A DNA stretch of 64,000 bases from Clostridia bacterium (GTDB lineage: Bacteria; Bacillota; Clostridia; UBA1381). Positions within the stretch are counted from its first letter, which is position 1, and every line of letters starts with the position of its first letter. Positions 3,965-35,539 of this stretch are shown here, one piece after another. A model generated the notes under the pieces. That model saw only the letters and a list, made by a program, of their open reading frames with translations. It searched no databases and was not told the DNA's origin. Location: NCBI GenBank assembly GCA_017935675.1, contig JAGBHE010000093.1, forward strand, positions 1-64,000, given 5' to 3'. The position numbers and the translations under genes are program-made.

Positions 3965-3973
3965 AAAAGGATG

Positions 3974-4013: not shown

Positions 4014-4025
4014 AGGAGGAACTTT

Positions 4026-17250: not shown

Positions 17251-19041
17251 CTAATCGTTGTCCCCGGTATGAAGTATCGGATACTTGAGGTCTATAACAG
17301 TACCTGTGCCTTCCGAAGAAATCTCAAGTCCGTATTCATCGCCGAATATCAGCTGTATTCTTTGAGCCGTATTCTGAAGTCCTATTGACCCTACCTGTTC
17401 AAGGAGGGGACTTCTTATTTTTTCTCTTATCTCTTCAAGTCTTTCATTTTCTATTCCCGTTCCGTTATCCGCAATTCTGAGAATCCATCGATTTTCTTCA
17501 ACATGAGTGGAAATGCTTATCCCTATGCTCATTGTATCGCAGTCCATTCCGTATTTAATGGCATTCTCAAGCAAGGGCTGCATACACAGCTTAACCACCT
17601 GCATATCAAGGGTTTCCGGAGCAATATCCCATGTTATATAAACGCTGTTATCATACTTTATATTCTGAAGCTCAAGGTATTTTTCTGCATTTTCAAGCTC
17701 CTGGCGCAGAGTGCATATATACTCGCTCGTATCAAGGGAAACCCGCAGAAGGTCGGATAAAAGCGCAATAATACGCGTAATCTCCGTATCTGTTTTCATA
17801 CGCGCAAGCACCGCGCCGTTTATAAGCTGGAGAGTATTGAACAGGAAATGAGGGTTAAACTGAGCCTGCAATGCTATCAGCTGTGATTTTTGCAGCCTTG
17901 CAAGGTTCTCGGTAAGCTCAAGCTCCATATCGGATTTATTTGTCAGTATCCCGATAATCTTCTGATTTATTTCGCTCAGCTCATTCATACCCTTGCCGCC
18001 GTCTTTCCCGGACTTATCCTCAGGCAAAAGCTGCATAAGAGAATAAATATAACCGTAAAACCATGCGGCAAGAACAATCGCAAGCAAAAAGCTTACAAGG
18101 AAAACAAGAATGCATATAAACACAAAGGTTCCCGTATTTCTGCGAAGTGTTCCCACAGCATTATCCTTCATGGTTTCAACAATTATGTACATGGGTATGT
18201 TTTTCTGGCGTATACTTGTAATTATTGCGTTTTTACCAAGAAAAGAGTGGAGATAATTATTTTCCTTAGCCGCATTGAAACCGCTGTAAATATCATCATA
18301 TTTTGAAATATTCTGATCAAGAAGATGGTCGTTTCCCGAATATATAACCTCCCCATCGGAATTTACAACATAAATTACGCTTCCGGCAAGGTCTATTCCC
18401 TTTTCTATCATCGACATCATGTCATAATGCATATTGAACACAATACAGCCCCTGCCGTCCTCCGTTCTTACGGGGTTTGTAACGGATATGCATTTTGAAA
18501 ATATTCCGTAGTCAGAGTGCCGCCTGAAAAAAATCCGGTTTTCATCAAGGGAGGCCCTGTCCTTCCATGAATTATCCATGAAAGAAACTGCCGGGCCGCT
18601 TTTATAAACAGATACGGTTGATACAACATAGTCAGCCTTCTCGTTATACATATACATTGATTTTACGACGCCGTCAAGCTTATCCTGATATGATTCCATA
18701 AGCTTTTGGCAGTCTGCCGCAGCCGCTTCTGCCGAAGATGCGTCGGAAGCGTCAAGAAAACGCCTGACCTCCGGGCTCATCTCAAGCTTTTTCCGCGCAG
18801 ATGTCATTTCAGCAAAAAAGCTGTCCATAGTATTTCTTGTTGCATACGTTTTCTGCGACAAATACAGCGTAATGTTCTCATAAAACCTGTTATTCTGGTA
18901 ATGTGAAATCACAACGAGAACAATTCCGGAGATAAGCACAATAACGAAAAGCACAAGCAGCATATACTTGAAAAATACGCTTCTCCATTTATAATTCTTA
19001 AGGGCGGTAAGCAGCCTGTATCTTTTTCCTTTATCAGCCAT
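17251..19041 (-). CDS. yesM: Sensor histidine kinase, YesM family
   Basis: A 596-aa membrane sensor. Helix 1 (about residues 20-45) and helix 2 (about 300-325) bracket an extracellular, Cache-like sensing region of roughly 255 residues. The cytoplasmic part has the LytS/YesM His_kinase motif ALQAQFNPHFLFNTLQLINGA, with the phospho-acceptor His, then HATPase motifs LLENAIKYGMD and ILRIADNGTGI. Such kinases typically sense polysaccharide-derived ligands and partner a YesN regulator, here immediately upstream. ATG at 19041 lies 5 nt after GGTGAT; a TTG at 19047 is the alternative. Confidence 0.93.
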   Translation of the reverse strand: MADKGKRYRLLTALKNYKWRSVFFKYMLLVLFVIVLISGIVLVVISHYQNNRFYENITLYLSQKTYATRNTMDSFFAEMTSARKKLEMSPEVRRFLDASDASSAEAAAADCQKLMESYQDKLDGVVKSMYMYNEKADYVVSTVSVYKSGPAVSFMDNSWKDRASLDENRIFFRRHSDYGIFSKCISVTNPVRTEDGRGCIVFNMHYDMMSMIEKGIDLAGSVIYVVNSDGEVIYSGNDHLLDQNISKYDDIYSGFNAAKENNYLHSFLGKNAIITSIRQKNIPMYIIVETMKDNAVGTLRRNTGTFVFICILVFLVSFLLAIVLAAWFYGYIYSLMQLLPEDKSGKDGGKGMNELSEINQKIIGILTNKSDMELELTENLARLQKSQLIALQAQFNPHFLFNTLQLINGAVLARMKTDTEITRIIALLSDLLRVSLDTSEYICTLRQELENAEKYLELQNIKYDNSVYITWDIAPETLDMQVVKLCMQPLLENAIKYGMDCDTMSIGISISTHVEENRWILRIADNGTGIENERLEEIREKIRSPLLEQVGSIGLQNTAQRIQLIFGDEYGLEISSEGTGTVIDLKYPILHTGDND

Positions 19042-19043
19042 AA

Positions 19044-20543
19044 TCAATCACCGAAAATTCCTTTATTGTTAAGATTTCTGTAATCCTGCGCCGTCACACC
19101 GCTGTAAAGCTTGAACATTTTATAAAAATAGTTCCTGCTCTTATAGCCTATCTTCTCATAAATATCATTGATTTTCATATCTGTTGTTCTTAAAAGAAGC
19201 TTTGCCTTTTCTATGCGCGTCTTATTGACGTAATCGGAGAAATTCTCTCCCGTTTCCGTCTTGAACATACGGCAGAAATGAGATGGGCTGAAATGAACAA
19301 ATTCTGCTGTATTTTTAAGAGACACACCCTCCTCAAGATGCTCGGATATATACCGTTTTGCCATTTTCACAGCCGAAGCCCTGTCAATCTCACTGTACCC
19401 TCTTGCGGCGCGTACAGCCGTATCAAGCGCAAGAGCGCAAAGCATATCGGGGTTTTGTATATGCAGCAGCTGTTCAAGGTCCGGTCTGTCCTCTTTTTTC
19501 TGCGGAGAATCGAGACGGAGCTCCTCATAGGAATTAAGAAGCTGTTCCATTATTGACTTGCAATAAAATCTTATTGCCGCCTCATCATCTGCAAACATTT
19601 TGTAGAATCTTCCCACCTCATGCCTTATTTCTTCCGCATTACCCTGCTCCACAAGCTTCATTATTATCGCCGTCTGAAAATCCGTGCTGAGCATTCTCAT
19701 TCTGTCCTTCATAAGCTTCAGATCAGGCTCAACAGCTTCAATGATGACCGATACTCCAAGCTCGATATTTTCAAAGCATTTCACGATAATTTCACCCCTA
19801 AGCTGTGCAAGCTCCTCAGAAAATCCGTTAATGCTCCTGCCGTTTGAGAGAACAAGCCATTGCATACTGTCAAAGGTGCGTGAATACGGTATTGCAAAGC
19901 AACTGCATGTTCGTACTATATTCTGCACAGCAGTTATCAGTCTGTTTCTTCCGTAGCTCCATACCTCCCGCAAATATTTCTGAAGCTGTTCAATCTCTAT
20001 GCGGATAATAGCGGCAGGTCTTTCCATTAAAGGTATATCACATTCGCCGGGAAGCTTTTTCAAAAGCAGCTGTTCATCATGTTCCGCTCCTGTCAGGTAA
20101 TCAATAATGCTCTGCTCCTGTCCTGTCAAATCGGTATTTTCCTCTGTCAGTTCATCCCGCCGCTTCTCATCAATCCTTTCGGAAAGCTTTAAAAGCAGTT
20201 CTGTAAGAGATTGTATGCTGACCGGCTTAAGAAGATAGTCCTCTACATGATATCTTATCGCCTTCTGCGCATAATCAAAATCAGAATAACCGCTCATCAG
20301 CGCAACACAGCAGCCCTGCCTGTTTTTCCGAAGCCATTCGGCAAATTCAAGACCGTCCATTCCGGGCATACTGATATCCGTGATAACAGCATCTGCATCA
20401 TGCTCATCAAGCCATTCAATGGCTTTTTTGGCATTCTGAAAGCTTCCGGCAAGCTTAAAGCCGTACTCCTCCCAGTCAATCATTTTTGAAAATGTGTTGA
20501 GTATTAATTTTTCATCATCAACTAAAATAACCGTATAAGCCAT
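19044..20543 (-). CDS. yesN: Response regulator YesN (receiver plus AraC-type HTH)
   Basis: A 499-aa regulator. The receiver domain at 1-120 has the acidic pair DD (9-10), phospho-acceptor Asp56 in AVITDISMPGMDGL and Lys106 in YLLKPV. A roughly 250-residue linker follows, then a C-terminal AraC-family DNA-binding domain (about 395-495: YISEHLEEGVSLKNTAEFVHFSPSHFCRMFK ... NDIYEKIGYKSRNYFYKMFKLYSGVTAQDYR). It is expected to activate the adjoining carbohydrate genes. It has its own promoter and a GGG-type ribosome site 6 nt before ATG. Confidence 0.95.
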   Translation of the reverse strand: MAYTVILVDDEKLILNTFSKMIDWEEYGFKLAGSFQNAKKAIEWLDEHDADAVITDISMPGMDGLEFAEWLRKNRQGCCVALMSGYSDFDYAQKAIRYHVEDYLLKPVSIQSLTELLLKLSERIDEKRRDELTEENTDLTGQEQSIIDYLTGAEHDEQLLLKKLPGECDIPLMERPAAIIRIEIEQLQKYLREVWSYGRNRLITAVQNIVRTCSCFAIPYSRTFDSMQWLVLSNGRSINGFSEELAQLRGEIIVKCFENIELGVSVIIEAVEPDLKLMKDRMRMLSTDFQTAIIMKLVEQGNAEEIRHEVGRFYKMFADDEAAIRFYCKSIMEQLLNSYEELRLDSPQKKEDRPDLEQLLHIQNPDMLCALALDTAVRAARGYSEIDRASAVKMAKRYISEHLEEGVSLKNTAEFVHFSPSHFCRMFKTETGENFSDYVNKTRIEKAKLLLRTTDMKINDIYEKIGYKSRNYFYKMFKLYSGVTAQDYRNLNNKGIFGD

Positions 20544-20611: not shown

Positions 20612-23600
20612 TTATCCTATTATTTTTTCATCGGACGCACATTCGGGTATCATTTTGTCAGCACCGCTCCAGAGCATTGCTTTAACCGTGTATTTTTTTC
20701 CGTCATCAAGAGAACACAGAACATCTGTTACAGCGCTGTCTTTATCTGCTGCGACGCTCTTAAATGAGGAGCAGACAAGTCTTCCGTCAGAATCATATAC
20801 AGCAATCATAATCACCGGCGCGGGAAGAGCGCTTTGATAGCCTACGGTTATTTCCGACTTTTCCGTTCCGGATGTATATCCAAGGACTTTTACAAACGGA
20901 GCTGCAGGCTTAAATTCAATTATGGTTTCCGGCGCCGTGAGGTCACAGGCTTCGCCTCCCAGCATCACACCGTTTACATAAGCTGACAACCCGGCGTCCG
21001 GAACTACCGATACAGACGCCGCACCGCTCGAAGAAACATTTCCTCCGACTCCTGCCGCAACCAGATAATCATGATAGCTGTCGCATACGCCAAAATTGCC
21101 CTGTTCACCGATAAGAGGCTTAAAGCTTTCATACGAACCGCCGGTGAATATTATCTTGTTAATCTCGTCCGGCGCTTTGCTGCCGCGTCTGCTTCCGGCA
21201 AAAATTCCGCGGTTTGCAATCTTTTGGGTAATAAGACGCGCTTCAGGTCCCAAAACAATCGTCGTGCTGCCTTTTACATAGCTGTCTGTCGAATATCCGT
21301 CAAAACCATAGTTGTTATAACAGCCGCTGTAAATACGTCTTGTAACCTCTCCGCCGAGAACCTTTATTGTAATATCACCTGTCAGCGGATTATCGGACGC
21401 AAACAGGCTTTCAACCGTTCCGCCCGTCATATTGATTTCGCTTGTAATTCTTTTTCCCTCTGTAATAAAGGCAGCGGCAAATACATTCATATAGCTTCCG
21501 CCTTCTATATTAACCTTGATTTTTCCTTCAACATGACTTGTTTTCTGACCGTGAGTGCCTCCGTACACATACGCTGCCCTTGCGTTGTTCTTAAGGGTTG
21601 TTATACAGTCACCCTTAACAATTCCTCCCCATGAGCCGCCGTGAATAACCGTTTCATAAAATGAACTGTCGGAATCATTTACAGAAAATGCACTGTTTAC
21701 ATTTCCTCCGACTGTGAGCCGGCAGTCGCCGAGAACATTACATGTGGCACCGCCGCCGTAAATCTGCTGATAGTTTCCGCCGTAAACCTCAAGATTTGTG
21801 CTTTCGACATCAGCATTGGCACTTCCGCCGCGGAGTTTAAGAACTGTTTCCGTACTCACCGTATCCTTAATAATCACATGATATCCGTTTGCCGTCACAG
21901 TATTTTTTGCCGTCATGTTTTTTCCTGTTCCCTCAGACGTGCAGCCGATTGTCAGGTTTTCAAATACTGCATTTGAACGTATATCAAGGTTTGATATAAC
22001 CTTGATATCAAGCATTGCATTATTTATGCCGGATATTGTGACTGTTTTGTCGGATACCGGCCATGCAAAATCACCGGGAACCGTTATTTTTCCGTCAATA
22101 ATCACCTTGCCGCCGTCTTCCGCAGCCTCAAGAGCTTTCTGAAGGCTGCTATATGGATTTGCTTCTGTTCCGTCACCGTTTACGCTTCCAAGATCTGAGC
22201 AATATATCGGAATTTCCGGAGAGCAAAGCCTTCCCGGGCTGCTGCTTATTACAGCGCCGCCATTTATGCAGGCTGACGGAACCGGAATATTAAACGCGCC
22301 TGCTGAGTCAGCCTTTCTCTGGTCAATAAATAAAATATTATCTTCTGTCACTGCGTCCGCACTGTTTTTAAGTATGCATACAGCTTCATCTTCACCTGCC
22401 CTTTCCGATATCCCCTTGAACCCGGCATTCGTAGATAAACCGGCAAACCCCGGTGCTTCCAGCACCGGGGTGTTTCCGATTCCGCAGAGCGGACGAAGTG
22501 TGTTCAGTGAATCAAGCAGGAATATCTTTATATATCCGTCTGAAACATTGTCAATCTTCATGTCTGTAATTTCAAAATTATTTTCACCTGTTGAAATGGG
22601 AGTTTGTGCGCTGAGCGCAATATTCTTCAGCGTACCGTCGGAAGCAAACAAAGCCGCACACATAATTCCGTTTGCTGCGTCAAAATCAACTGCCGAAGCC
22701 TTAAGAGATATATTTACATTTCCGGCTCCGGTAACAGCAGCATATGTTTCGAGCGGCTCTCCCTGAGCGTTTGTAAATACAGGCTTTTCCGGGCTGAGTG
22801 ACGGCGAGGTTATGTTATTATATGTAACCGTAGGATTCCAGAATACAAACTTCGCATTTCCCGTAGCTGCGTCAACCGCATTTACTTCAAACCAAAGCTG
22901 TTCACCCTCATAAATATAAGTATTAATACCGCCTTCGGGGAATGTATAGGTTGCTGTCGAATTTGTACTTGCTGTTACTTCTTTGAAAGTAAACTTATTT
23001 GTAAGAAGCGTGTCTTTAACAGTTCCGTCACTTGTTCTTTTTGTGATCTTGACTTCCGCACCTGAGGTTTCTGTAGTTGAAAGCCGACGTGCGATTATTC
23101 TTTTTAAGCCACCCAAATCTACTGCGGAAATACTGACATTGCCCGACATCGGAGCGGTAAATGCCTTTACAAGACTGTTGTTCTCATTTCCTGTATATGC
23201 TGTTCTCATCCACCAACGGCTCATAGCTGAATTTTCGCCCGCATTTGCTTTTGCTCCGGCATAATAAACTCTGATCTTGTCCACGTTGGCTGTTCCTCTT
23301 TCAAGATATGCCGGGTTTCCCGCATCGTCAACCGGCTTGATATACAAATGAGTCGAGTTTGCTCCCGTCTTCGTTAAAGGCTGATACGGAGAAGCTGTTC
23401 CCACAGTGGAACTGTTTTTATAAAGCCATTTCCATACAGAGTCATCATTTTTCATGTTGTCAGCCGATTCCGTTCCCTCAGCAGGCCATGCGTCGGAAGA
23501 AGTATAGACGGCTTTAGCACCTGCTTTGTCTATTGCGGATACCACAGGCTTCCAATACACATATTTACCGGAACGATTATAATTTTTGTCATCGCTCTCG

Positions 23601-24292
23601 CTGTAATCTATATCACCCTCTATATCGCTGCCGTTATAAACCGAAAATCTCAGCACCTCACTTGTTGAAAGGGCTACGCGGAATGGTTCAAACTTGTAAT
23701 CCTGGGTCTGTGTTTCCGGTATGCGTAGCTCGGCGCCGTTAAAGGGCCATACCACTGTTTCATTACCTGCCGCGTCCGTTTTCGTTATTCTGACAAAGGC
23801 TGTCCTGTGACCTTTTTCTCCCGGTTTCAATGAACCGCCGTAAATATATCCGTCCTCTGTTGACAGCTCATAAAGACCGTCAGCCGGCGCCTTAAACACC
23901 CTTGAAACAGAATAAGCATCATCATTCTTTCCACTTAATGCATACGGCTTCATCCAGCCTTCGCCGACTGCAGGATGCGTCCCGTCTCCCTTCGCAGTTG
24001 TCCACGCAGGTCCCGAAGGACGATTTTGCAGCACATCACCGGGTTTCATGGAAAAGCCAATTCGTGCCTTATGAAAAACTTTCAACGGCTGCACTACCCC
24101 ACTGTCGTCTCTCTCCCACGTCCAAATTGTATTGCCGTTATAGGTATTAACTTCGTCGCCGTCCGCCGTTCCCTCGTACCAGGCATCCGATGCTTTGTAT
24201 ACCTGATTTGATTCACCCTCTGCAGAAACAGATACCATTCCCGCAAGCATTGCTGCTGACAAAAGCCATGACAACATTTTTTGTTTTCTCAT
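20612..24292 (-). CDS. Secreted 1226-aa protein: two ASDAW modules plus beta-helix
   Basis: An extracellular protein. The signal peptide is residues 1-24 (cleavage near VSA-EG). Residues 31-254 and 261-494 are two copies of an unrecognised roughly 220-aa module (starts SDAW, VWKW; core FKAP/FTAP, GYIYGG; ends YVYWKPVVS). The same module occurs twice in the 763-aa protein at 31341-33632. Residues 523-603 and about 1150-1225 are smaller beta-domains with a GYIKIFLLDSLNTLRPL-type end. Residues about 697-1090 form a right-handed parallel beta-helix rich in GGxxxxVYGG turns, of the pectate-lyase/adhesin type. No catalytic triad is obvious. It is probably a glycan-binding or polysaccharide-modifying surface protein, last in the long minus-strand operon. 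Confidence 0.85.
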   Translation of the reverse strand: MRKQKMLSWLLSAAMLAGMVSVSAEGESNQVYKASDAWYEGTADGDEVNTYNGNTIWTWERDDSGVVQPLKVFHKARIGFSMKPGDVLQNRPSGPAWTTAKGDGTHPAVGEGWMKPYALSGKNDDAYSVSRVFKAPADGLYELSTEDGYIYGGSLKPGEKGHRTAFVRITKTDAAGNETVVWPFNGAELRIPETQTQDYKFEPFRVALSTSEVLRFSVYNGSDIEGDIDYSESDDKNYNRSGKYVYWKPVVSAIDKAGAKAVYTSSDAWPAEGTESADNMKNDDSVWKWLYKNSSTVGTASPYQPLTKTGANSTHLYIKPVDDAGNPAYLERGTANVDKIRVYYAGAKANAGENSAMSRWWMRTAYTGNENNSLVKAFTAPMSGNVSISAVDLGGLKRIIARRLSTTETSGAEVKITKRTSDGTVKDTLLTNKFTFKEVTASTNSTATYTFPEGGINTYIYEGEQLWFEVNAVDAATGNAKFVFWNPTVTYNNITSPSLSPEKPVFTNAQGEPLETYAAVTGAGNVNISLKASAVDFDAANGIMCAALFASDGTLKNIALSAQTPISTGENNFEITDMKIDNVSDGYIKIFLLDSLNTLRPLCGIGNTPVLEAPGFAGLSTNAGFKGISERAGEDEAVCILKNSADAVTEDNILFIDQRKADSAGAFNIPVPSACINGGAVISSSPGRLCSPEIPIYCSDLGSVNGDGTEANPYSSLQKALEAAEDGGKVIIDGKITVPGDFAWPVSDKTVTISGINNAMLDIKVISNLDIRSNAVFENLTIGCTSEGTGKNMTAKNTVTANGYHVIIKDTVSTETVLKLRGGSANADVESTNLEVYGGNYQQIYGGGATCNVLGDCRLTVGGNVNSAFSVNDSDSSFYETVIHGGSWGGIVKGDCITTLKNNARAAYVYGGTHGQKTSHVEGKIKVNIEGGSYMNVFAAAFITEGKRITSEINMTGGTVESLFASDNPLTGDITIKVLGGEVTRRIYSGCYNNYGFDGYSTDSYVKGSTTIVLGPEARLITQKIANRGIFAGSRRGSKAPDEINKIIFTGGSYESFKPLIGEQGNFGVCDSYHDYLVAAGVGGNVSSSGAASVSVVPDAGLSAYVNGVMLGGEACDLTAPETIIEFKPAAPFVKVLGYTSGTEKSEITVGYQSALPAPVIMIAVYDSDGRLVCSSFKSVAADKDSAVTDVLCSLDDGKKYTVKAMLWSGADKMIPECASDEKIIG
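22448..22470. repeat. Perfect 10-bp GC-rich hairpin inside a coding region
   Basis: CCCCGGTGCT (22448-22457) and AGCACCGGGG (22461-22470) with a 3-nt loop lie within codons 608-615 of the 1226-aa protein, at a boundary between its domains. The strength of the hairpin is unusual for coding sequence in this AT-leaning region. It could be a small palindrome insertion or a transcription pause. Confidence 0.75.
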
Positions 24293-24325
24293 TTTAAATT
24301 CCTCCCTTTCATTTTTTACTGCTGA

Positions 24326-26932
24326 CTATCTGTATACAACAGCAGTAGAAATTGTACCGCCTTTTCTATGCATAAATATCATATCACCTTCAAGGATTTC
24401 CGAAGCCGAGGCATATTTCAGTTCGTTATCTTCTTTAATATAGAACCAAATATAGTCGGTAGCTGTGAAAGGATACAGTCTGTTCCAGCTTTCCATGGGG
24501 AAAGAATATCCCCTATCAGCTTCATCCTGTGTAGGAATATGATTATTTACAACAATACCGTCGGTAACTCTTGCCGTTACCTTTCCATAGGAAAAAATCG
24601 ATGAACCGTTAAATATATATTGACTTATACCATATTCATTGCTTGTATCTTTTTTTGATTTTTCAAAAATGAGCTCACTGTTATCCTCCATCGGCACAGC
24701 CTGAGCAGAGAATGAGATCATGCCCTTTTTGCCTTCCTTTAGCTGTATAACGGTTCCTCTCGGAAGCTCCTTTGCAGTAATCTGCCTCAAGCGATTATCT
24801 CCCGACACTACATTTCCGTTCGGCGTTTTCAGCTCTCCGTCACGGATATTGCATGTTTTCAGATTGCCGTTTCCGTCATAGCAGGACAGGCGGTAACACG
24901 CTTCTCCCGTTTCCTCATCATATACGGATGATATCGAATCCACAACATATGATGTGTTTGACAAGTCAACCCACATATCCTGCCTGAGAAGAACAACGAT
25001 GTATTCAGGCACGTAGTTTTCATCTACATTGTAAAGCCTGATATTATAACTTGTTCCCGATGTCAGTGCAAGACCGTTCTGAACATAGCACTCATCCTGT
25101 TCCGTGCTCACTCCGAAAAGCTTTGTATCGGAGGTTGGAACATATTTGGAGCCGAGAACCTTTTTACCGTTAAAGGATAAAATACGAAGGGGGTTTTCCG
25201 TCTCAGAGCTGTAATCAAGGGATAATCCCCGTCCATCGCTTGTGCTTCCCACTCCGCCGCCCAATGCGGCAGTATCAATCATGAAAATGTTTCCGTCCCG
25301 CGTATCCTTGTAAAGTATCAGCTGGGGAATAAAATCACCTTCACTTGTCACCAAAGCGTCGTAGCTTTCAAGCTTTTCCTTTGATATTCTTTGTCCGTCA
25401 ACAGTGACCTTTTCGGAAATCTTTGCAATCTCAATCTCACCGTTTTCCTTAAGCATCTTAAATTGCACATCAAGGTCATCATTTACAAGCATGTTCATGA
25501 CATATCCTGCTTTAAAGGTCGATTTTACCCGTTTTACATCTGTTACAAAGCCCTTGAAATCAAAGAAAAATTCCACTTCATCGCCCGGGCTAATTTTCTC
25601 ATAGCTGCTTAAATTGTTATAATATGCCGAAAGGGCTTCATATTTCTCTCCGGACAAATACAGATATCTGTAATCCTCCTCCATCTGTGTAAATATACCT
25701 GTTTTCTTTTCTGACGATACAATTATTTTGGTATATTCCCCGTCCTTTGACAGCAAATACGATACAATGTCATACTGGCTTATATCATCAAGACTTATTT
25801 TTTCGCCGTCAGCTTTGTATATAATTCCGCCGTCCTCAAGATATTCGCTGAAGTCATATACATGGCTGTTTGTGTCAATCATTCTGCTCTCATCCGTAAT
25901 TACGGCATCGGCCATAAAAGCATCATACTTTTCAGCTATTATAACATCAATTTTCGAGTCGTCGTCATTATCGATAAGCCTGTATCTGCCATCCTCAGCT
26001 GTCAGGTCGTTTTCCGTGAAGCTTTCCATCAAACGTCCGTTATATATGAAATCCGCCTCACTGTCAATAACCAAGGTCTTTGTTCTATGCTTCTCGTTGT
26101 AATAAGTAAGCTTCGTGATACCGGTCTTATCATGTATGATATCCTTTGAATAAACGCTGAAAACGCTGTTTAACGCATCATCCGGAATCATTGAAAGGAT
26201 TTCGCCGCTTTTATCGTTATATAAAAATCTGACGCTCATGCCGATATATTCGGAAAGATCCTTTCGGGCAACTGCGTTACCGTACCATACGCCGTCTACA
26301 GCAACGCTTTCTTTTCTGCCGTTTTTGCTTCCTTTATAGCTTACACTGTCAGTCCCCGTAACAACACCCTTGCCTTCCTCCAGCTTGAGCACGGAGCTCA
26401 GAAGCGTGGCTTCCTTGTCAACATAATACTTTCTGTTGCCGGAAGCTGATAAATCAACCTTAAGAATATTTACTTCCGAAATCGCATTATATAAAAGCTC
26501 CGCATAATCCCTCATGGTTACAGGGTCTGTATCTCTCGGCGCTGCCGGAATTTTAAAGCCCGCCACACCGGCAACTGTGCGATATGACGAGGGATTTTCT
26601 ATATCAAGCTGATTCATCTCCATATAAGACACATAGCCTGTCAGGTCCACAAGAATCATCATAAGCTGACCGAACAGAAGGGGCTGTGACATATCACGCC
26701 GCTCAAGGTAAGCATCATACGTATTCTCGGAATACAGCTTTTCAAGAGTATTCATAAGCATTTCGCGCGTTACGTTTGCCCCGGGCTCATAGCTTTCAAT
26801 AAGCCCCAGGTCAAGCAGAATTTCAGCGCTTCTGTTTATATTCCGCGCCTCATCGTTATTCTGTGCAAAGGCCGGGCACGAAAATGAGCAAAGTATTGCT
26901 GTGCAAAGTAAAAATATCAGAAATTTTTTCAA
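24326..26932 (-). CDS. Secreted 868-aa protein with divergent N-terminal SLH-like repeats
   Basis: The signal peptide is residues 1-23 (AFA-QN). Residues about 30-160 contain SLH-like units (ILLDLGLIESYEPGANVTREMLMNTLEKL and TDPVTMRDYAELLYNAISEV) that lack the usual conserved tips, so wall binding may be altered or lost. The remaining roughly 700 residues are a chain of beta-rich segments with no catalytic motif I recognise (recurring patterns such as DAVITDESRMIDTN and YDALVTSEGDFIPQLILYKD). It is encoded 14 nt after the SLH protein gene and is likely to be co-expressed with it. Possible roles are scaffold or substrate-binding protein at the cell surface. Confidence 0.8.
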   Translation of the reverse strand: MKKFLIFLLCTAILCSFSCPAFAQNNDEARNINRSAEILLDLGLIESYEPGANVTREMLMNTLEKLYSENTYDAYLERRDMSQPLLFGQLMMILVDLTGYVSYMEMNQLDIENPSSYRTVAGVAGFKIPAAPRDTDPVTMRDYAELLYNAISEVNILKVDLSASGNRKYYVDKEATLLSSVLKLEEGKGVVTGTDSVSYKGSKNGRKESVAVDGVWYGNAVARKDLSEYIGMSVRFLYNDKSGEILSMIPDDALNSVFSVYSKDIIHDKTGITKLTYYNEKHRTKTLVIDSEADFIYNGRLMESFTENDLTAEDGRYRLIDNDDDSKIDVIIAEKYDAFMADAVITDESRMIDTNSHVYDFSEYLEDGGIIYKADGEKISLDDISQYDIVSYLLSKDGEYTKIIVSSEKKTGIFTQMEEDYRYLYLSGEKYEALSAYYNNLSSYEKISPGDEVEFFFDFKGFVTDVKRVKSTFKAGYVMNMLVNDDLDVQFKMLKENGEIEIAKISEKVTVDGQRISKEKLESYDALVTSEGDFIPQLILYKDTRDGNIFMIDTAALGGGVGSTSDGRGLSLDYSSETENPLRILSFNGKKVLGSKYVPTSDTKLFGVSTEQDECYVQNGLALTSGTSYNIRLYNVDENYVPEYIVVLLRQDMWVDLSNTSYVVDSISSVYDEETGEACYRLSCYDGNGNLKTCNIRDGELKTPNGNVVSGDNRLRQITAKELPRGTVIQLKEGKKGMISFSAQAVPMEDNSELIFEKSKKDTSNEYGISQYIFNGSSIFSYGKVTARVTDGIVVNNHIPTQDEADRGYSFPMESWNRLYPFTATDYIWFYIKEDNELKYASASEILEGDMIFMHRKGGTISTAVVYR

Positions 26933-26946
26933 TTAATACTTCCTCC

Positions 26947-28638
26947 TCACAAATCACCGCAGTTTTTAAGCGTACTGTAAATAAGCTTTGCCGCTTCCGC
27001 GCGTGTTATCGTGTTTTGCGGCAAAAAGCATCCGGTTTCGTATCCCGAAATAATATCGGCCATTTGCAGCTTCTGAACGCCGAGCAACGCATATTCGGAA
27101 ATATCCTCATGGTCGGTAAAGTCCTTTGGAGGACTGCTTTCATTAATCACCTTTTTTGCCGCTTCCGCCCCGCGGCATATCATAACTGCCGCATCCTGTC
27201 TTGTTATGCTGCCGCCGGTGCCGAAGGTATTTTCATTAATTCCCTTTACAATTCCGAGAGCAACAGCCTTTGCTATATACTGTGCATACCACTCATTTTC
27301 ATCCACATCATGAAAGCTTATCCCGGGAAGACTCTCGGGCTCCGCCGGCTTTAACGCTTCAATCAGCATTTTTAAAAATTCCTCGCGTTTAACCGTATCG
27401 GCAGGGCGAACCATATTATTTCCGTCACCTGACATAATGTTTCTGTCAAGCAGGTATTGTATATACGGCTTCCCCCATTTCACTTCATCAATGTCGGAAA
27501 ATACCCTTTCGGGATTAACTCTTTCGACGATTTCCGGCGTAAGCTGTCCGGATAATACTCCGACGCCGCTCGGCGCCGCACCGCCGCCGCCACCGCCGCC
27601 GCCGGACGAATGAGGCTTGCCCGAAGGGCTCCTATACAGTGATTCGACAACTGATTTGAATTTTTCACGCACCTGCGAAACGGAGGTGTACGGTGCTTCA
27701 CCGGGTGCCATTTTCTTTATAAACTCATAAGAATCCACCTGAGCGAAATCTCCGCTCCAATCAAGCTGAAAAACATCATTAAAGCTTTTGAGTATATTGA
27801 TAATTTCATCTCTTGAAGCCTCGTTAAGTGTGCCGAGAGCTTCCGATTTCCTCAGAATTGCCTCAAACTCCGATACATTTGTAATCGGGTTTGATGCCTT
27901 ATCATTTCTAAGGCTTATAAAAGCTTTAAGCACGCTTTGATTCTTTTCTTCGACAAGCTTCGGATAATCCGCTCCCAAAATACTCTTATATTTTGAAAGC
28001 ACTCCGTAAATATCATTTTCGGGGCATTCGGAAATCTGCGCAAGAGCAGAGGCCTTTAAAAAGCTGTCCTCCACGACATCCGCCGTTTTTATAATGCTGA
28101 CAAGATTTTCATTTACTTTATCCCTGCTGCCTGTGTATATCTCATCTTCAAGGTCAAGAGTCCATGCCTTATTTTGGTATTTTCCCAAAATATCGGATAC
28201 CTCCGCAGGAGACGCTCCGCGAAGCTCTTCCAAAGCGCTGCCGTATACAGCCTCTGACGGGTATATTACACTTATGGTCTCGCCGTCCAGCTCACCGCCG
28301 CCGACTGTAACATTATAGACCGTATCCTTTAAAATCCCGTTTGCGTTCCGGTTTATTAAAATACTGTTATAATCGCTTTCGGCGGCAGGGGAAAGACGAG
28401 CCTGTTCGAGCAATATGCCGCCGCTTATCATGCCGCTTGCATTTTCGGCAAGCTCTGCATCCTTTTCCGTAAGATAAATTGTATAAAGCGTAGTATCATC
28501 GGTATCGGAAATAATGTTTACCGACAGTTTGCCTCCCTTTAATGAAGCATATGCCTCCGTATCGGCAAATGCGTTTGCCGCAAACAGGCTTATACAAAAG
28601 AATACGCAAGCTGCCGCCGTTATTTTTTTCAATGTCAC
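26947..28638 (-). CDS. SLH-domain surface protein
   Basis: A 563-aa secreted protein. The signal peptide is about 28 residues (AFA-DT). It is followed by a beta domain and helical segments to about residue 345, a glycine-run linker (eight or more Gly), and three C-terminal S-layer homology repeats (FSDIDEVKWGKPYIQYLLDR, FHDVDENEWYAQYIAKAVALGIVKG, FTDHEDISEYALLGVQKLQMADIISG, each ending with an ITR or VKR motif). SLH domains bind pyruvylated secondary wall polymer, so this protein should be anchored on the envelope. GTG at 28638 overlaps the GH10 stop by 4 nt; a TTG at 28632 is 10 nt from GGAGG and equally possible. Confidence 0.92.
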   Translation of the reverse strand: MTLKKITAAACVFFCISLFAANAFADTEAYASLKGGKLSVNIISDTDDTTLYTIYLTEKDAELAENASGMISGGILLEQARLSPAAESDYNSILINRNANGILKDTVYNVTVGGGELDGETISVIYPSEAVYGSALEELRGASPAEVSDILGKYQNKAWTLDLEDEIYTGSRDKVNENLVSIIKTADVVEDSFLKASALAQISECPENDIYGVLSKYKSILGADYPKLVEEKNQSVLKAFISLRNDKASNPITNVSEFEAILRKSEALGTLNEASRDEIINILKSFNDVFQLDWSGDFAQVDSYEFIKKMAPGEAPYTSVSQVREKFKSVVESLYRSPSGKPHSSGGGGGGGGAAPSGVGVLSGQLTPEIVERVNPERVFSDIDEVKWGKPYIQYLLDRNIMSGDGNNMVRPADTVKREEFLKMLIEALKPAEPESLPGISFHDVDENEWYAQYIAKAVALGIVKGINENTFGTGGSITRQDAAVMICRGAEAAKKVINESSPPKDFTDHEDISEYALLGVQKLQMADIISGYETGCFLPQNTITRAEAAKLIYSTLKNCGDL

Positions 28639-31322
28639 TGCGCCTCCTTTTCTGAAACACTTATGTATTTTATCATGGCAGGAATATCTATAAGTCCCGA
28701 AATTCTTATTTCGCACGTTCCGGGATTTTCAAAATAAAATCCCGCTTCTCCGCCGCTGCTTTCGCCGGCATAGATTTTTTTCCATTCTCCGTCCCGGGAG
28801 CGGGCTTCGGCAGAAAACAAAGCGGCGTCGCTTCCTCCTGTTTTCAGCTTTATAAATCCGCCGTCAACGCACTTTTTTAATTTCACATCTATGGCGCTTT
28901 CGCGGCTCACGGCACAAGGTAAGGTATTACCGTCCCGCAAAAGAAAATCAGCGTTTTCTCCTGTGCTCTTTTTCGCATGCTCCCCTTTATTTTCGTAAAG
29001 CTCAAGATAAGCAAGCTCCGCCTCCTTATCTGTGAACAAAGCAGTTTTTAACTCTGTATTTATTGCTGTCTTTTTTGGGACTTCCTCCGAGGAAGCAAGC
29101 TCAATTCCTCCCTCCGTCACAATGGCTCTGACGGTGTTCTCGCCGTCCTTTGTGAGAACAAGTGTTGTTTTTGATACTGCTCCGTCAGCCTCAACGGTTA
29201 TATCATAATTTCCTCTGTGACCTCTGATTACCGCCTCACCGTTTTCATCGGTTACGGCTGTTTCGTTTGTAAACCATTCTCCCCATACATATTCATCCCA
29301 GTATTTTAATGCTGGCTTCGGATTATATGATGCAAAATACAAAGGTGCGTTTCCTCTCCAGTGCCCGTGGTCGGTAAAACCCCACATGGTAAAGCTTGTC
29401 GTTTTCGGATGGGAATAAGCAAGAATTATGGAATCCCTCAGATAATCCGCTTCAATTTCAAGAGCGTCTACCGTGTCCGGCAGCTTGCTGAGATAATCGT
29501 ACTCGGTTATTGCAATACAATCTAAATTCGCCGCTATATAATCAAGAGCATTATAAAACTTCTGAGGATATATAAAGCCGGCAGCATGGTTTTGTATTCC
29601 TATACCGTCAACAGGTGCACCCGCTTCAAGAAGGGAATCCACTATTTTGCGAATCTTCTCAATCGACGCCTGATTTGTGTCGGCGCCGGTGATTCCCGTT
29701 TCATTTACAAAAAGCCTTGCACCGGGCAGAACATCACGTGTCATTTTAAATATATCGGCTATAAAATCACATCCGTACCACTGCCGTGCAACATCATTAT
29801 TAAGCGGCTCATTAAGAACATCTACTTCGTCAATATTGTCTCCGAAAAAATAGGCAAGCTTACTTGCATATTTATAGCAGGCATCTTTTATTTCATCTTC
29901 GTCAGGCTTATCTGACAGCTCTGCCGGCCACAAATCCTGTCTGTCCCAGAAAATTGCGTGGGCTCTGAAATAAAGGTTGTTCTCCCTTGCGAAATTCACA
30001 CCTGCAACACAGTTTTCCATGCGGAAATTTCCGGACTTCATTCCGGTTTCACAGGTAAAGGAATTAAACTTATGCGCCTGTATGTCCTGATAATAACCGG
30101 CGTTTTTTCCGCCCTCAAAGCACTTCTGATGATTTGCCGCATTTCCCCATAAAAACTCGCTCTTTGTCATATTCGCAGAAATTTTTGCCCCGGTCACGGG
30201 CTTTCCGCTTTCGTCACGGACACTTATTTTAATATCATTCTTTCTGTATTTTTCAATTCTGCGAAGGGCTTCTTCTCTCCACAGCGCCCCTTCCTCTCTG
30301 CCATAATAAGTAGTTTCTATAACCTTATCGGGCGCGATAAGTGAAATATCCACCTTTTTCCCGTAGTTCAGAACCTCAACGGCTCCGAACTGAATTGTTT
30401 GCAGCCGGAAGCCTATCCGAAATCCAAGCTGCGCTCCGCCTCCGTTCAGCTTTGCGTTGACAACAAAGGGGTAGGTGTATTTTGTCCACTCCTCCGAAAG
30501 CTCCGTTTCCGTTGCATTATGGTATTTCGTCCAGATGCCGTCAAGCGCCTCATATGTTGTATTGAAGGAAGCAAAGCCCGATTCGTCAACGCATTTGATT
30601 TTTCTTGCCCAAAAGCTCAGATACAGGACATCGCCCGGTGAAACACTTGTTTCTATCGGGATTGTAATCTGTGAGTCGTAATACAGCCTTGGCTCCGTCA
30701 GATTTTCAACCTCCACAGCCCTCGTAAATCCCGGAGCATCATCTACCTCAACCGTGCGCATTGAAATAAGCTCCGGATCGCTGATCTCCGCGTCAAACAG
30801 GCTGTCATTCGATATATGTACACTTTTCGGCGTTATTGAAGAAAGATATGCGTTTACATCAAAATCGGTGTTTTTCTCTTTGCTTTTCTCATCTTGAAAA
30901 ATCCGAGCTGTGAAATCTATTTTGTTTTCACCGACCATGCAGTCAATCCCGTAAAACATATCGATAAAACGAAGCTCCACAAGAACATCATCCTTCAGGC
31001 TTTGCAGCGGATTGTCAAGCTCAATAGGCACCAAATCATAGGAAGCTTCTGAACCTGATATCGGCACTACCGCCTCCGCGCCGTTTACCTCGCCCTTATA
31101 AACCTTCTGCTGTTCATCATAACCGATAAAAAAACCAAGCCTGCCCATCAGCTCCTTAAACGGGAACAGCCATTCTCCGTTTTGGAGAATTATCTCTCTC
31201 GAAAATGTAACGTTTCTGCCGTTTATTGTAACGCACGGACCGAGACTATAGTCTGCGTACACAGGTAATGCTGACTGCATAATTAATAACGATAAAATAA
31301 CAATACTTATTATCCGTTTCAT
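28635..31322 (-). CDS. Secreted GH10 endo-beta-1,4-xylanase, multidomain
   Basis: An 895-aa extracellular enzyme. The signal peptide ends near VYA-DY (23). Residues about 28-140 resemble the copper-amine-oxidase N-terminal-like domain (VTINGRNVTFSREIILQNGEWLFPF) seen in many Firmicute surface proteins. Residues about 160-320 look like a CBM4/9/22-type jelly roll (SPGDVLYLSFWARK, FRIGFRLQTIQFG). The GH10 barrel (about 355-690) has acid/base Glu505 in DVLNEP and nucleophile Glu607 in AITEYDY (usual family form TELD). The end carries a beta-sandwich. The preferred substrate is inferred to be xylan. It is the only clear secreted glycanase in the locus. Confidence 0.9.
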   Translation of the reverse strand: MKRIISIVILSLLIMQSALPVYADYSLGPCVTINGRNVTFSREIILQNGEWLFPFKELMGRLGFFIGYDEQQKVYKGEVNGAEAVVPISGSEASYDLVPIELDNPLQSLKDDVLVELRFIDMFYGIDCMVGENKIDFTARIFQDEKSKEKNTDFDVNAYLSSITPKSVHISNDSLFDAEISDPELISMRTVEVDDAPGFTRAVEVENLTEPRLYYDSQITIPIETSVSPGDVLYLSFWARKIKCVDESGFASFNTTYEALDGIWTKYHNATETELSEEWTKYTYPFVVNAKLNGGGAQLGFRIGFRLQTIQFGAVEVLNYGKKVDISLIAPDKVIETTYYGREEGALWREEALRRIEKYRKNDIKISVRDESGKPVTGAKISANMTKSEFLWGNAANHQKCFEGGKNAGYYQDIQAHKFNSFTCETGMKSGNFRMENCVAGVNFARENNLYFRAHAIFWDRQDLWPAELSDKPDEDEIKDACYKYASKLAYFFGDNIDEVDVLNEPLNNDVARQWYGCDFIADIFKMTRDVLPGARLFVNETGITGADTNQASIEKIRKIVDSLLEAGAPVDGIGIQNHAAGFIYPQKFYNALDYIAANLDCIAITEYDYLSKLPDTVDALEIEADYLRDSIILAYSHPKTTSFTMWGFTDHGHWRGNAPLYFASYNPKPALKYWDEYVWGEWFTNETAVTDENGEAVIRGHRGNYDITVEADGAVSKTTLVLTKDGENTVRAIVTEGGIELASSEEVPKKTAINTELKTALFTDKEAELAYLELYENKGEHAKKSTGENADFLLRDGNTLPCAVSRESAIDVKLKKCVDGGFIKLKTGGSDAALFSAEARSRDGEWKKIYAGESSGGEAGFYFENPGTCEIRISGLIDIPAMIKYISVSEKEAQ

Positions 31323-31340
31323 ATAAAATCTCCCTGCATA

Positions 31341-33632
31341 TCATGGCTTGAATATCTTAACCGGAAGCAGTGCCCTTGCGGAAGGAATACTTTCTGCAAG
31401 CAGAGCCTTAATCATATACCCCTCTGAAGAGTCAAGCTGCACCTTAAGACTTAAGCTGTCATTTTCTCCGATATCCTCGCGTCTTACATACAAAATACGC
31501 TCAATTTCATAATTATTCTCATCTCCACGGCAGACAGCCGCAAGAAGGGTTGCGCCGTACGGCGATACATCGGTGTTATTTATACCGACGCTTATAATGT
31601 TTTCACCGGCTTTCAGGGCACCGTCTGAAATTGAAATTTCTCCGAACGAAACGGCTGAGCCTGTCGTAAAGGAATATTCATATACTCTTGTGTTCTCATT
31701 GGGAACACCGGGAATACGGATATTCTGAAGCCTTACCGTATATTTTGTATAAGACTTAAGACCCGAAAATACAAGCAGAAGCGTTTTATCATTTACTTCA
31801 ACCGTTTTAACCTCTGCTCCGTTGTCAATCTCTATGTCATAAAAATCCGGAGTCTCAATTTCATGGTCAAAAGCAATCTTATGAACAAAGTTGGTGTCAA
31901 TATCCGCCGAATTATTTTCGGGTATTGTGCTTTCAACGTTTGGAATAATATTCATGTAGCTTACAACAGGATTAAAAAATACCTGCTTTGAATAAGCGCT
32001 GCCGCCAAGCTCACCGCTTATTACAAACCACAGCTGTTCTCCCTTGCTTACCTCAGCCTCAAATGGCTCTAATGTGCACTCCGCGACTCCGTCAGACGGA
32101 ATCACAGCATTTATATAATTAAATGAATGCGACCACAGAACCTTATCTTCCCCGCCCTCGGGGGCTTTTCTGATGACCTTTACAACTGCACCGAGCCTGT
32201 TATTTTCACTTATATCCCTGTTATATATTTTTGACTGACCCTCCATATCCTTTGCACTGATTTTGACCGTTCCGCTTTCCGGCGCCGTAAAGGATTTTAC
32301 AATCGCATTATTCGGGTTCTGCAAAGGCTCTGTGCTGGTCCCAACCGAAAGCCGCGCCCAGTATCTTCCGACGGAGTTTCTCATATATGCGTTTGACTGA
32401 CTGTCACAGAAAACAAAGGTTCTTTCCGACTTTTCTCCGACATGCGAATAATCATATGTACCGTCACTGCCTTTTACGGGCGCAACGTAGTTATTCGTAT
32501 TGTTCTGCGCGGTAAGGGTATATTCCACAAACCTGTCCCCTGAAAGGGTATTCCTGTACAGCCATCTCCATACCGGGTCATTGTTCGAGGATTCTGACCA
32601 TGCGTCGCTTGCTTCATATACGGGGTATCTGAAAATATCTCCCGTTGTAAAGGAAAAGCTGCAGCTGTGCTCGGTGTCTTCTCCCATGGGCACAATCCCC
32701 GTTATGTTAACCGTATAACTTGTATATCCCATAAGACCGCTGAAGCTGAAGGATATGCTTTTTCCGTCCTCATTCATGGAAAAGCTGCTGACAGCAGCCT
32801 CATTATCCTCAGACAAAATTTCAATGTTATCTTTTGTCATGTCGGAAATCATGTCGGGAAAGGTTACGGTAAAGACCTGGTTTTCTCCGATATTTTCAAG
32901 GTTTTCGGGGTATATGCTCTCCGGAACATAATTATAGCTTACAACCGGTGCCCAGTAAACATATTTTCCGTAGCCCTTGCTTCCGTCACCGTTATATGCT
33001 TCAAACCGTATTACATCACCCTCATTCACATCAAGGGTTATGGGAGAAAAGCTTACTGTCTGCACAGGCACGGTGCTGCACGGTATCTGATACTCCCCGC
33101 CGCCTGAAGGCCATATCTGCTCCCCGTTTTTTGTAATTCTTATAAAAGCCGTAGTATTGTCCTTATCCTTTGACTTTGCACCGCCGTAGATTTTTCCGTT
33201 TTCACAGCTGAGGGTAACATTTCCGCTTTTCGGAGCCGTAAAGCTTTTGCATACTCCGTACTTGCTTCGGATGCTTTCGTCAGTGCCTGTTGTTTTGATA
33301 AGGGGTATCATCCAGTACCTGCCGACAGCCGCCGTATTCCATGCGGAACCGGAGCACCAGCCGCCCCCAGTCGGTGCATTTTCATTTACCGGGTTTTCCG
33401 GGTCAACACCGAACCTGCCGCGGCTCTTATTATACACGTCAAGCTCCGTATATGTATTACCCATATCGGTATAGCTTTCCCATTTCCAGACATCATCGGA
33501 AGAGGCAGCGTCACTCCAAGACTCCGATGCTTTAAAAATCTCTCCGGAGGCCGCCCCGGCGTCAGCAATAATCAGAAAAAAGCAGAACAATAAGGATACC
33601 GTCAAAAGCATTATATTCTTTTCAGTTTTCAT
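31341..33632 (-). CDS. Secreted 763-aa protein: two ASDAW modules and Ig-like domains
   Basis: The signal peptide is about residues 1-28. The order is module copy B1 (31-237), an Ig-like domain of the Big_5 type (about 238-333: YPENLENIGENQVFTVTFPD ... SCSFSFTTG), module copy B2 (337-562), a second Big_5-like domain (about 563-668, IPENNSADIDTNFVHKIAFD ... YEYSFTTG) and a final beta-domain with a GYMIKALL motif. The modules match those in the 1226-aa protein. There is no catalytic motif. The Big_5/module alternation suggests a stalk that displays binding domains. It lies 32 nt after the transporter permease gene. Confidence 0.85.
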   Translation of the reverse strand: MKTEKNIMLLTVSLLFCFFLIIADAGAASGEIFKASESWSDAASSDDVWKWESYTDMGNTYTELDVYNKSRGRFGVDPENPVNENAPTGGGWCSGSAWNTAAVGRYWMIPLIKTTGTDESIRSKYGVCKSFTAPKSGNVTLSCENGKIYGGAKSKDKDNTTAFIRITKNGEQIWPSGGGEYQIPCSTVPVQTVSFSPITLDVNEGDVIRFEAYNGDGSKGYGKYVYWAPVVSYNYVPESIYPENLENIGENQVFTVTFPDMISDMTKDNIEILSEDNEAAVSSFSMNEDGKSISFSFSGLMGYTSYTVNITGIVPMGEDTEHSCSFSFTTGDIFRYPVYEASDAWSESSNNDPVWRWLYRNTLSGDRFVEYTLTAQNNTNNYVAPVKGSDGTYDYSHVGEKSERTFVFCDSQSNAYMRNSVGRYWARLSVGTSTEPLQNPNNAIVKSFTAPESGTVKISAKDMEGQSKIYNRDISENNRLGAVVKVIRKAPEGGEDKVLWSHSFNYINAVIPSDGVAECTLEPFEAEVSKGEQLWFVISGELGGSAYSKQVFFNPVVSYMNIIPNVESTIPENNSADIDTNFVHKIAFDHEIETPDFYDIEIDNGAEVKTVEVNDKTLLLVFSGLKSYTKYTVRLQNIRIPGVPNENTRVYEYSFTTGSAVSFGEISISDGALKAGENIISVGINNTDVSPYGATLLAAVCRGDENNYEIERILYVRREDIGENDSLSLKVQLDSSEGYMIKALLAESIPSARALLPVKIFKP

Positions 33633-33664: not shown

Positions 33665-34567
33665 TTATCCCTTTATTGAACCTATCATTATCCCCTGTAC
33701 AAAATATTTCTGTACAAACGGATAGAAGCACCATACCGGCAAGCTTGCGGCAACTATAAGCGAATATTTAAGCAAATCCGCAATATTCTGCCTTTGCACA
33801 AGCTCCTCTCCCGTTGTTATCATATCGCCGTCAACCTTGAAGGATATAAGAATTTCACGCATTACAAGCTGCAGCGGAAACTTTTCCTGTGACGACAAAT
33901 ACAAATATGCGTTAAAGTATGAATTCCAGTGGCTTACCGCATAGAAAAGCACCAATACAGCAATAATCGGCTTTGAAAGCGGCAATGCAATCTGTGCAAA
34001 AAATCTGAAGTCGGAACAGCCGTCAATCATTCCGGCCTCTCTCAGACCGGCCGGTATATTCGTTGCAAAATATGTTCTTGCAATTATCATATTATAAACG
34101 GAAATTGCTCCGCTTATAATAAGAGAAAATCTTGTATCCAGCAGTCCCAAGTTCATCATCAGCAGATAATTCGGGATTATTCCTCCCGAAAACATCATCG
34201 TAAAGGTAAACAGCCCCATAAGCACGTTCCTTGCGGCAAAATCCGGACGTGAAAGAGGATATGCCGCCAGCATTGTCATGATTATGTTCACTATTGTTCC
34301 GACAAAGGTGTAAAAAATTGTGTTGGCATAGCCCGTAAGTATTTTATCGCTTGCAAAAAGTGCCTTATAGCCTTCAACGCTGAAATCAACAGGCCACAGA
34401 AAAACTCTGCCCGATACAACAGCCTCACCTGACGAAAACGATGATGCTATTATGTTCACTATCGGAACAAGAACCACGCCAAGAATAATTATCATGATTA
34501 CATTCACAACGGCATAGAACACCTTGTCAGACCTTGGTATTGCAACATTATTTTTTTGTTTATGCAT
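33665..34567 (-). CDS. Carbohydrate ABC transporter permease (LplC/YtcP type)
   Basis: A 300-aa inner-membrane permease with about six membrane helices. The ABC permease EAA-type loop is EAGMIDGCSDFRFFAQIALPLSKPI near residue 185, and the C-terminus VQKYFVQGIMIGSIKG is characteristic of the LplC/YtcP subgroup of CUT1 importers. It forms a pair with the permease encoded just upstream. No ATPase gene is present, as is usual for this subgroup, which shares an MsmX-type ATPase encoded elsewhere. Confidence 0.95.
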   Translation of the reverse strand: MHKQKNNVAIPRSDKVFYAVVNVIMIIILGVVLVPIVNIIASSFSSGEAVVSGRVFLWPVDFSVEGYKALFASDKILTGYANTIFYTFVGTIVNIIMTMLAAYPLSRPDFAARNVLMGLFTFTMMFSGGIIPNYLLMMNLGLLDTRFSLIISGAISVYNMIIARTYFATNIPAGLREAGMIDGCSDFRFFAQIALPLSKPIIAVLVLFYAVSHWNSYFNAYLYLSSQEKFPLQLVMREILISFKVDGDMITTGEELVQRQNIADLLKYSLIVAASLPVWCFYPFVQKYFVQGIMIGSIKG

Positions 34568-34582
34568 TTTATCAACCCTTCC

Positions 34583-35539
34583 TTACCACAAGCTTGTATC
34601 CGAAACTCTTTTTGAAATTCCGTTCACGACTACAAGTAAAATAAGGTTTATCACCGAATTGAACATACCTATTGCCGTACCGTACGAAAAATCTCCTCCG
34701 CCTGCTGAAAGTCCTGCCTTGTATGAATAGGTTGATATAACCTCACTTGTGCTTATATTCAGATTATTCTGCATAAGAAGCACCTTTTCAACACCTACAT
34801 TCATCATCTGTCCGGCATTCATTATAAGAAGTATAACCGCCGTGGGAACTATTGCCGGGAAGTCGATATACCATACTCTCTGTAATCTTGTTGTGCCGTC
34901 TATCAGCGCTGCCTCAGTCTGCTCCGAGTCAACATTGGACAGGGCGGCAAGATAAATTATGGAGGACCATCCCATGTTCTGCCAGATTCCCGACCAGACA
35001 TACATATGAACAAACGCCTTCGGTGACGCGTTTATATCCTGCATAAGCTGTCCTGTCATAAGGCTGTACAGATTTCCGAACATTCCGACTCTCGGGCTGA
35101 ACATCTGTATAAGCATTCCGACCATAACAACAGATGAGATAAAATGCGGAAGATAGGTTGCCATCTGTACTGTTTTTTTCAGAATCTTGTTCCGCATTGC
35201 ATTAAGTCCGAGAGCAAGTATTATCGGTATGGGAACACCAGCCGCCAAATTATAAAACGACAATACAAGCGTGTTCACAATAACATTGCCGAACTGCGGC
35301 GAATTGAAAAATCTTCTGAAGTGCTGCATTCCAGCCCAAGGGCTTCCCATTATTCCGAGAGCGGGATTGAATTTTCTGAATGCAATCTGCAATCCGTACA
35401 TGGGATAATACGCAAAAATTATTATGTAGATTACCGGCAAAATTATCATGACATAAAGCTGCCCGTTGCGTTCAAGCTCTCTTTTAATCCTGCCCGCAAA
35501 GCTGCGGGCAGGCGGTTTTAAAACTGTCTTTGATTTCAA
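34583..35539 (-). CDS. Carbohydrate ABC transporter permease (LplB/YteP type)
   Basis: A 318-aa permease with six predicted helices. LPVIYIIIFAYYPMYGLQIAFR near residue 35 and the EAA loop TEAALIDGTTRLQRVWYIDFPAI near residue 205 place it with LplB/YteP. It starts at TTG 35539, 8 nt after GGGGAG; it is 14 nt from the solute-binding protein gene and 15 nt from the second permease gene. Confidence 0.95.
   Translation of the reverse strand: MKSKTVLKPPARSFAGRIKRELERNGQLYVMIILPVIYIIIFAYYPMYGLQIAFRKFNPALGIMGSPWAGMQHFRRFFNSPQFGNVIVNTLVLSFYNLAAGVPIPIILALGLNAMRNKILKKTVQMATYLPHFISSVVMVGMLIQMFSPRVGMFGNLYSLMTGQLMQDINASPKAFVHMYVWSGIWQNMGWSSIIYLAALSNVDSEQTEAALIDGTTRLQRVWYIDFPAIVPTAVILLIMNAGQMMNVGVEKVLLMQNNLNISTSEVISTYSYKAGLSAGGGDFSYGTAIGMFNSVINLILLVVVNGISKRVSDTSLW

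Follow-up and report, generated by a model that had tools for sequence, protein, structure and literature searches.

A tandem module without a Pfam name, probably of carbohydrate-binding type, in a polysaccharide-use locus of a Clostridia bacterium

In a stretch of 64,000 nucleotides from contig JAGBHE010000093.1 of a Clostridia bacterium (hereafter the window, in which all positions are given), two proteins, here called A and B, carry two copies each of one module that has no name in Pfam or NCBIfam. We consider it probable, at about 0.65, that this module is an unclassified, non-catalytic β jelly roll of carbohydrate-binding type, probably of the TNF/C1q kind, which stands in tandem on secreted proteins of a locus for polysaccharide use. 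Since in several related bacteria it lies next to, or is fused with, enzymes that cut plant fibre, we infer that the module binds sugars and probably holds polysaccharide at the cell surface.

Four homologous copies of the module

The two proteins and their modules are as follows; each copy was taken into the alignment, the list of conserved columns and the tree.

20612..24292, minus strand: protein A, open reading frame (ORF) of 1226 amino acids, with a signal-peptide-like start, two modules and a C-terminal half that looks β-helix-like by eye
23531..24202, minus strand: module A1, type 1, in protein A
22811..23512, minus strand: module A2, type 2, in protein A
31341..33632, minus strand: protein B, ORF of 763 amino acids, with a signal-peptide-like start followed by B1, Big_5, B2, Big_5 and an unassigned C-terminal part of about 100 residues
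32922..33542, minus strand: module B1, type 1, in protein B; modelled, predicted template modelling score (pTM) 0.78
31947..32624, minus strand: module B2, type 2, in protein B; modelled, pTM 0.82

The four ranges (A1, A2, B1, B2) are open segments of 224, 234, 207 and 226 residues, which the initial annotation had taken for homologous copies sharing one order of motifs. Both parts of that claim were confirmed. All six pairs match in BLASTP, most strongly A1-B1 (1e-32), A2-B2 (9e-33) and B1-B2 (5e-15), and more weakly A2-B1 (1e-9), A1-A2 (8e-8) and A1-B2 (1e-5), and their Smith-Waterman scores lie 11.5–44 standard deviations above those of 500 shuffles. The motifs are present in the translated segments. 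The repeat, of about 207–234 residues, opens with S-[DE]-x-W and continues with a W-x-W strand, an aromatic middle that varies, and F-x-A-P-x-x-G-x-x-x-[IL]-S; after a strand of the form [VI]-x-[VI] and a hairpin of the form [GS]-[DE]-x-[IL]-x-F it closes with K-x-V-[YF]-[WF]-x-P-x-V. At 22–39% identity the copies retain several tryptophans, and the columns without variation include W8, W27, W29, W83, F103-x-A-P-x-x-G109, F186 and K213-x-V-x-x-x-P-x-V. The tree also included L009, another Oscillospiraceae metagenome-assembled genome carrying the same two-module protein. Because the copies pair in it by position (A1 with B1, 100/97; A2 with B2, 100/99), each grouping with its counterpart from L009, proteins A and B probably arose when a single two-module ancestor was duplicated as a whole.

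Family name and distribution

No credible match over the module was obtained with hmmscan when the whole proteins A and B were compared with Pfam-A and NCBIfam, or when the single modules were compared with Pfam-A. Moreover, 63 relatives, each scanned against Pfam, received no name for the module and gave two stray matches to unrelated families; CBM_35_2 was matched weakly (E 0.047) in two of them, and none reached the Pfam cut-off for C1q. Among PDB sequences, no match spanning the module was found with profiles of the four copies, of 28 rows or of 63 rows. The antibody chains from the four-copy search (E 0.08) were rejected as noise, the flagellin, cerebellin and CBM77 fragments from the two larger profiles do not match across the module, and the value of 1.4e-7 obtained with 5kca adds up three repeats at roughly 10 bits apiece and does not count as independent evidence. 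No description of the module was found in the literature, which is weak evidence by absence. The initial annotation had proposed a family without a name and a profile search to check it; the Pfam part of that search gave no clear family match, and as to Pfam-A and NCBIfam the claim stands. The comparison covered the carbohydrate-binding modules (CBMs) present in Pfam or PDB, CAZy's own profiles lying outside it. The module is real, CBM-like by its company and new at family level when set against Pfam and NCBIfam, not against CAZy's profiles.

The family was followed by profile searches of whole genomes, short peptide patterns being too strict for it. The genome itself encodes three further module proteins, with two copies each, at 17–32 kb of its contig C6. 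In the class sample, 15 of 391 genomes carry the module (E 1e-6), and in the phylum sample 4 of 398 do, the genome itself included, so its distribution is patchy; at the level of the taxonomic family it was found in 6 of 70 genomes (E 0.01). A scan with the four-copy alignment gave only one locus in genome contigs and none in viral contigs, and there was no match in the plasmid collection. Copies are single or in tandem: six precede the GH10 domain in L027, and L079 has nine, mostly weak ones. The proteins at L079:5120-10300 and L080:4305-9230 have four to nine weak, divergent module-like tandem repeats, the module profile recognising nothing else in them, and may represent a branch of their own within the family.

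Domains fused to the module in relatives

Attachment to an enzyme as a discrete domain, a trait of CBMs, was found in relatives on proteins of several catalytic types. The module shares a chain with GH10 in L025, L027 and L063, with GH95 in L028, with a SASA esterase in L029, with a PF00756 esterase in L030 and with a GDSL domain in L070, and in L073 it is joined with GH2, NPCBM, F5/8C and FIVAR. In addition, it is fused to surface-layer homology (SLH) domains in L064, L067 and L070, to β-helix regions in L065 (weak), L067, L069 and L072, and to Big domains in protein B of the window, L065 and L066. The window copies fall within a clade of 26 rows (99/97) formed by the loci with the GH10 gene cassette described below together with L009 and L026, where the contigs end too soon to show whether the cassette is present. 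As the modules of that cassette share a clade and those from esterase, GH95 and GH2 proteins lie outside it, modules and enzymes have partly stayed together.

A conserved gene cassette around the module proteins

The genes that accompany proteins A and B in the window are listed here.

33665..34567, minus strand: ABC importer permease (PF00528), in conserved place
34583..35539, minus strand: ABC importer permease (PF00528), in conserved place
35554..37215, minus strand: extracellular solute-binding protein (PF01547)
28635..31322, minus strand: GH10 protein, 895 amino acids, with a copper-amine-oxidase-N-like domain (Pfam GH10, 2.4e-36); closest solved relatives are xylanases
26947..28716, minus strand: SLH protein, 589 amino acids, with three SLH stretches (Pfam SLH, 1.9e-34), in conserved place
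24326..26932, minus strand: protein of 868 amino acids, matching no family of Pfam or NCBIfam; conserved companion of the module proteins
19044..20543, minus strand: response regulator with AraC-type DNA-binding domain
17251..19047, minus strand: sensor histidine kinase, partner of the preceding regulator, with a weak Cache match
15842..17230, minus strand: GH30 enzyme without evident signal peptide
13783..15885, minus strand: GH65/GH95-like enzyme without evident signal peptide

When the window proteins were compared by blastp with the fetched loci, the order importer, module protein B, GH10, SLH protein, 868-residue protein and module protein was found to recur on contig C6 of the same genome and, within the limits of the contigs, in the genomes G218 (L063) and G122 (L066). 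Within 10 kb of the module 8 GH10 domains were observed and 0.57 expected (P 1.8e-7), or 6 when counted by loci (P 3e-5); these counts are rough, as the cluster spans were set by hand and GH10 genes that share a locus are not independent. The 868-residue protein, which is matched in neither Pfam nor NCBIfam at E 0.09 or better, has homologues in nine other module-bearing regions, several of them without any GH10 found, and is therefore the most constant companion of the module. Its first 150 residues or so resemble degenerate SLH repeats by eye.

Predicted fold and kinship

Both modelled copies are predicted by AlphaFold to be beta-rich single domains with a jelly roll (for B1, pTM 0.78 and predicted local distance difference test (pLDDT) 72; for B2, 0.82 and 78), in agreement with the beta pattern that had been read from the sequence earlier; the input was six sequences from the window and L009, and deeper alignments would probably improve the models. 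Their neighbours include CBM35, CBM51, CBM70, a porphyran CBM and CBM4 besides TNF and C1q. In Foldseek, B1 is closest to CBM35 (8.9e-6), followed by C1q-like proteins and ExsFA near 4e-4, while for B2 the TNF family prevails, near 1e-4, with CBM70, CBM35 and the porphyran CBM among the matches. The comparison with CBM folds envisaged in the initial annotation gave a mixed picture for B1 and mostly TNF-family matches for B2. With VIA-align, B1 gave the Epf adhesin (Z 9.6) and CBM51 (Z 8.2), and B2 gave meprin (9.3), TNF (8.6) and many TNF/C1q rows (TNF-family Z 7.6–8.6). The Epf adhesin, meprin MAM and Kgp adhesin domains were set aside, with rmsd (root-mean-square deviation) of at least 3.6 Å and 8–13% identity in most rows.

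Profile comparison with hhalign gave a score of 29.6 (P 1.6e-4) against a C1q set, with 26.8–31.8 for random half-sets, versus 13.4–15.8, the noise level, against CBM6, CBM35, CBM51 and CBM4_9; column-permuted decoys did not exceed 12.6, and CBM6-CBM35, as positive control, gave 29.0. The C1q set consisted of six domains checked against PDB, plus one bacterial match, and without this bacterial sequence the score was 27.9; a larger collection of C1q sequences from bacteria was out of reach, PF00386 having one match in 299 phylum genomes. It is therefore suggested, on models and profiles, that the module is nearer to the TNF/C1q jelly roll than to the CBM6, CBM35, CBM4 and CBM51 families compared. 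The link stays suggestive because single modules remain at noise against the C1q profile and because C1q was chosen for comparison after PDB-wide searches had pointed to it.

Several known jelly rolls resemble the module in part. C1q (PF00386) and TNF-like domains share with it F-x-x-P-x-x-G, then a V-x-[IL] strand, then [VL]-x-x-G-[DE]-x-[VI], besides the profile score and the prevalence of TNF/C1q chains among the matches of B2. Some of them bind sugars (PMC3164656, PMC12914763, PMC6409975), including the bacterial TNF-like lectins BC2L-C, by its N-terminal domain (PMC3164656), and PLTL (PMC12914763), which may be likened to the sugar binding proposed here. Unlike them, the module has about 60–100 more N-terminal residues and no Pfam C1q match, and it occurs in tandem on proteins of polysaccharide degradation. 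CBM35, CBM6 and CBM51 (NPCBM) share with it the jelly roll, a similar size class and the same kind of host proteins, and CBM35 also an F-x-x-P-x-x-G-x-Y strand, but profile comparison with them stays at noise. CBM70, which binds hyaluronan (4d0q; PMC4175358), and the porphyran-binding CBM (8xmz) are fold neighbours of B2 (E 1e-4 to 5e-4), but have no sequence match and 10% identity or less.

Role of the module and alternatives

A carbohydrate-binding role is supported by the fusions to catalytic domains, the recurrent gene order, the GH10 adjacency, the tandem copies, the jelly-roll models and the C1q profile score. Several points weigh against this interpretation. Some modules, those of the window among them, have no enzyme on their own chain, and the conserved aromatic residues could belong to the core. 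The models rest on six sequences, with the pLDDT given above and weak loops, Z values of 7–9.6 can reflect merely a common arrangement and are no proof of kinship, the best Foldseek match of B1 is CBM35, not C1q, and single modules stay within noise against the C1q profile. The CBM proposed in the initial annotation holds as to the companions (enzyme fusions, and a GH10 cassette that also includes the SLH protein and the importer), but the closest kin appear to be TNF/C1q, not the CBM families compared.

The main rival is that the module is a domain for surface assembly or oligomerisation, like C1q, TNF or the heads of Bacillus exosporium ExsF/BclA, and joins the GH10, SLH and module proteins without touching sugar. 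TNF/C1q and ExsFA are indeed among the fold-search matches, the constant companions are surface proteins and not one enzyme, and fusions to SLH and β-helix proteins would suit it. However, two to nine non-identical copies per chain suit avidity better than homotrimers, the catalytic domains fused are diverse, and the TNF/C1q kinship is itself only suggestive; we regard this explanation as unlikely. It also seems improbable that the module is a far-diverged member of a galactose-binding-like family (CBM6/35/51 and kin) that is known or already numbered in CAZy. The top Foldseek match of B1, the Z value for CBM51 and the weak CBM_35_2 match speak for such an origin, whereas profile scores of 13–16 with CBM6, CBM35, CBM51 and CBM4_9 against 29 for CBM6-CBM35, and the lack of any Pfam name among the 63 relatives, speak against it. 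A purely structural role as spacer, such as that of Big and Fn3 domains, is very unlikely: the module alternates with Big_5 in protein B, and Big domains occur in relatives, but 170–230 residues is a considerable length for a spacer, the copies keep several tryptophans despite their low mutual identity, and the placement of the module at the C-terminus of GH95 (L028) or the N-terminus of GH10 (L025, L027, L063) is typical of CBMs.

Under the carbohydrate-binding interpretation, the tandem modules of proteins A and B, two units each for avidity, would keep a polysaccharide of hemicellulose type, probably a xylan, on the cell surface, and the neighbouring GH10 would cut it; the ABC importer would bring the oligosaccharides in, the GH30 and GH65/95-like enzymes would finish them inside, and the histidine kinase with the AraC-type regulator would control the system. 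Neither protein has a recognised anchor of its own, and the SLH protein is encoded alongside. Surface holding of plant polysaccharides is less worked out in Gram-positive Clostridia of gut and rumen than in Bacteroides. More tentatively, an unnamed clostridial CBM family on a TNF/C1q jelly roll might form, together with the 868-residue protein, the SLH protein and GH10, a conserved Gram-positive cell-surface apparatus for glycan capture, with a role like that which surface glycan-binding proteins have in Bacteroides. The recurrent cassette gives a concrete set of proteins for testing. With the module left unnamed on proteins that carry GH10, GH95, GH2 or esterase domains, likely glycan receptors are overlooked when these degraders are annotated, and a TNF/C1q-like fold serving as CBM, if true, would add a rarely used scaffold to their sugar recognition.

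Other features of the host proteins and neighbouring genes

The C-terminal half of protein A reads by eye as a β-helix-like repeat region, with no Pfam match and, by phmmer, no β-helix entry in PDB. The two halves of the protein are separate frames in L009: the β-helix-like part at 20903-22141 (minus strand), which starts with GDGTEANPYSSLQKALEAAEDGG, corresponds there to the separate frame 3838-4776 with 48% identity. By analogy with CBM89 (PMC8810776), a β-helix xylan binder of a GH10 system, a similar role is possible for this part; the likeness is limited to this half of protein A and does not extend to the module. Proteins A and B also have in common a C-terminal domain of about 100 residues with the pattern A-x-Y/C-D ... 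K-A-L/M-L-W/A, located at 31341-31659 (minus strand) in protein B and in the last 90 or so residues of protein A (20612-20887). It also ends the proteins of L028, L029 and L030, and Pfam names it in none of them.

The GH10 and SLH ORFs, the latter with a GTG start, overlap by 82 bases as listed (28635-28716), and the homologous pairs in L024 and L063 likewise overlap as stop-to-stop frames; the true start of the SLH protein may lie downstream of the listed GTG. A short 12-base tandem repeat at 27574-27603 encodes a glycine run in the SLH protein. Finally, a protein of 821 residues (38660-41125, plus strand) has as its only recognised part a C-terminal copper-amine-oxidase-N-like domain (4.5e-33), a type of domain that is also N-terminal in the GH10 protein.

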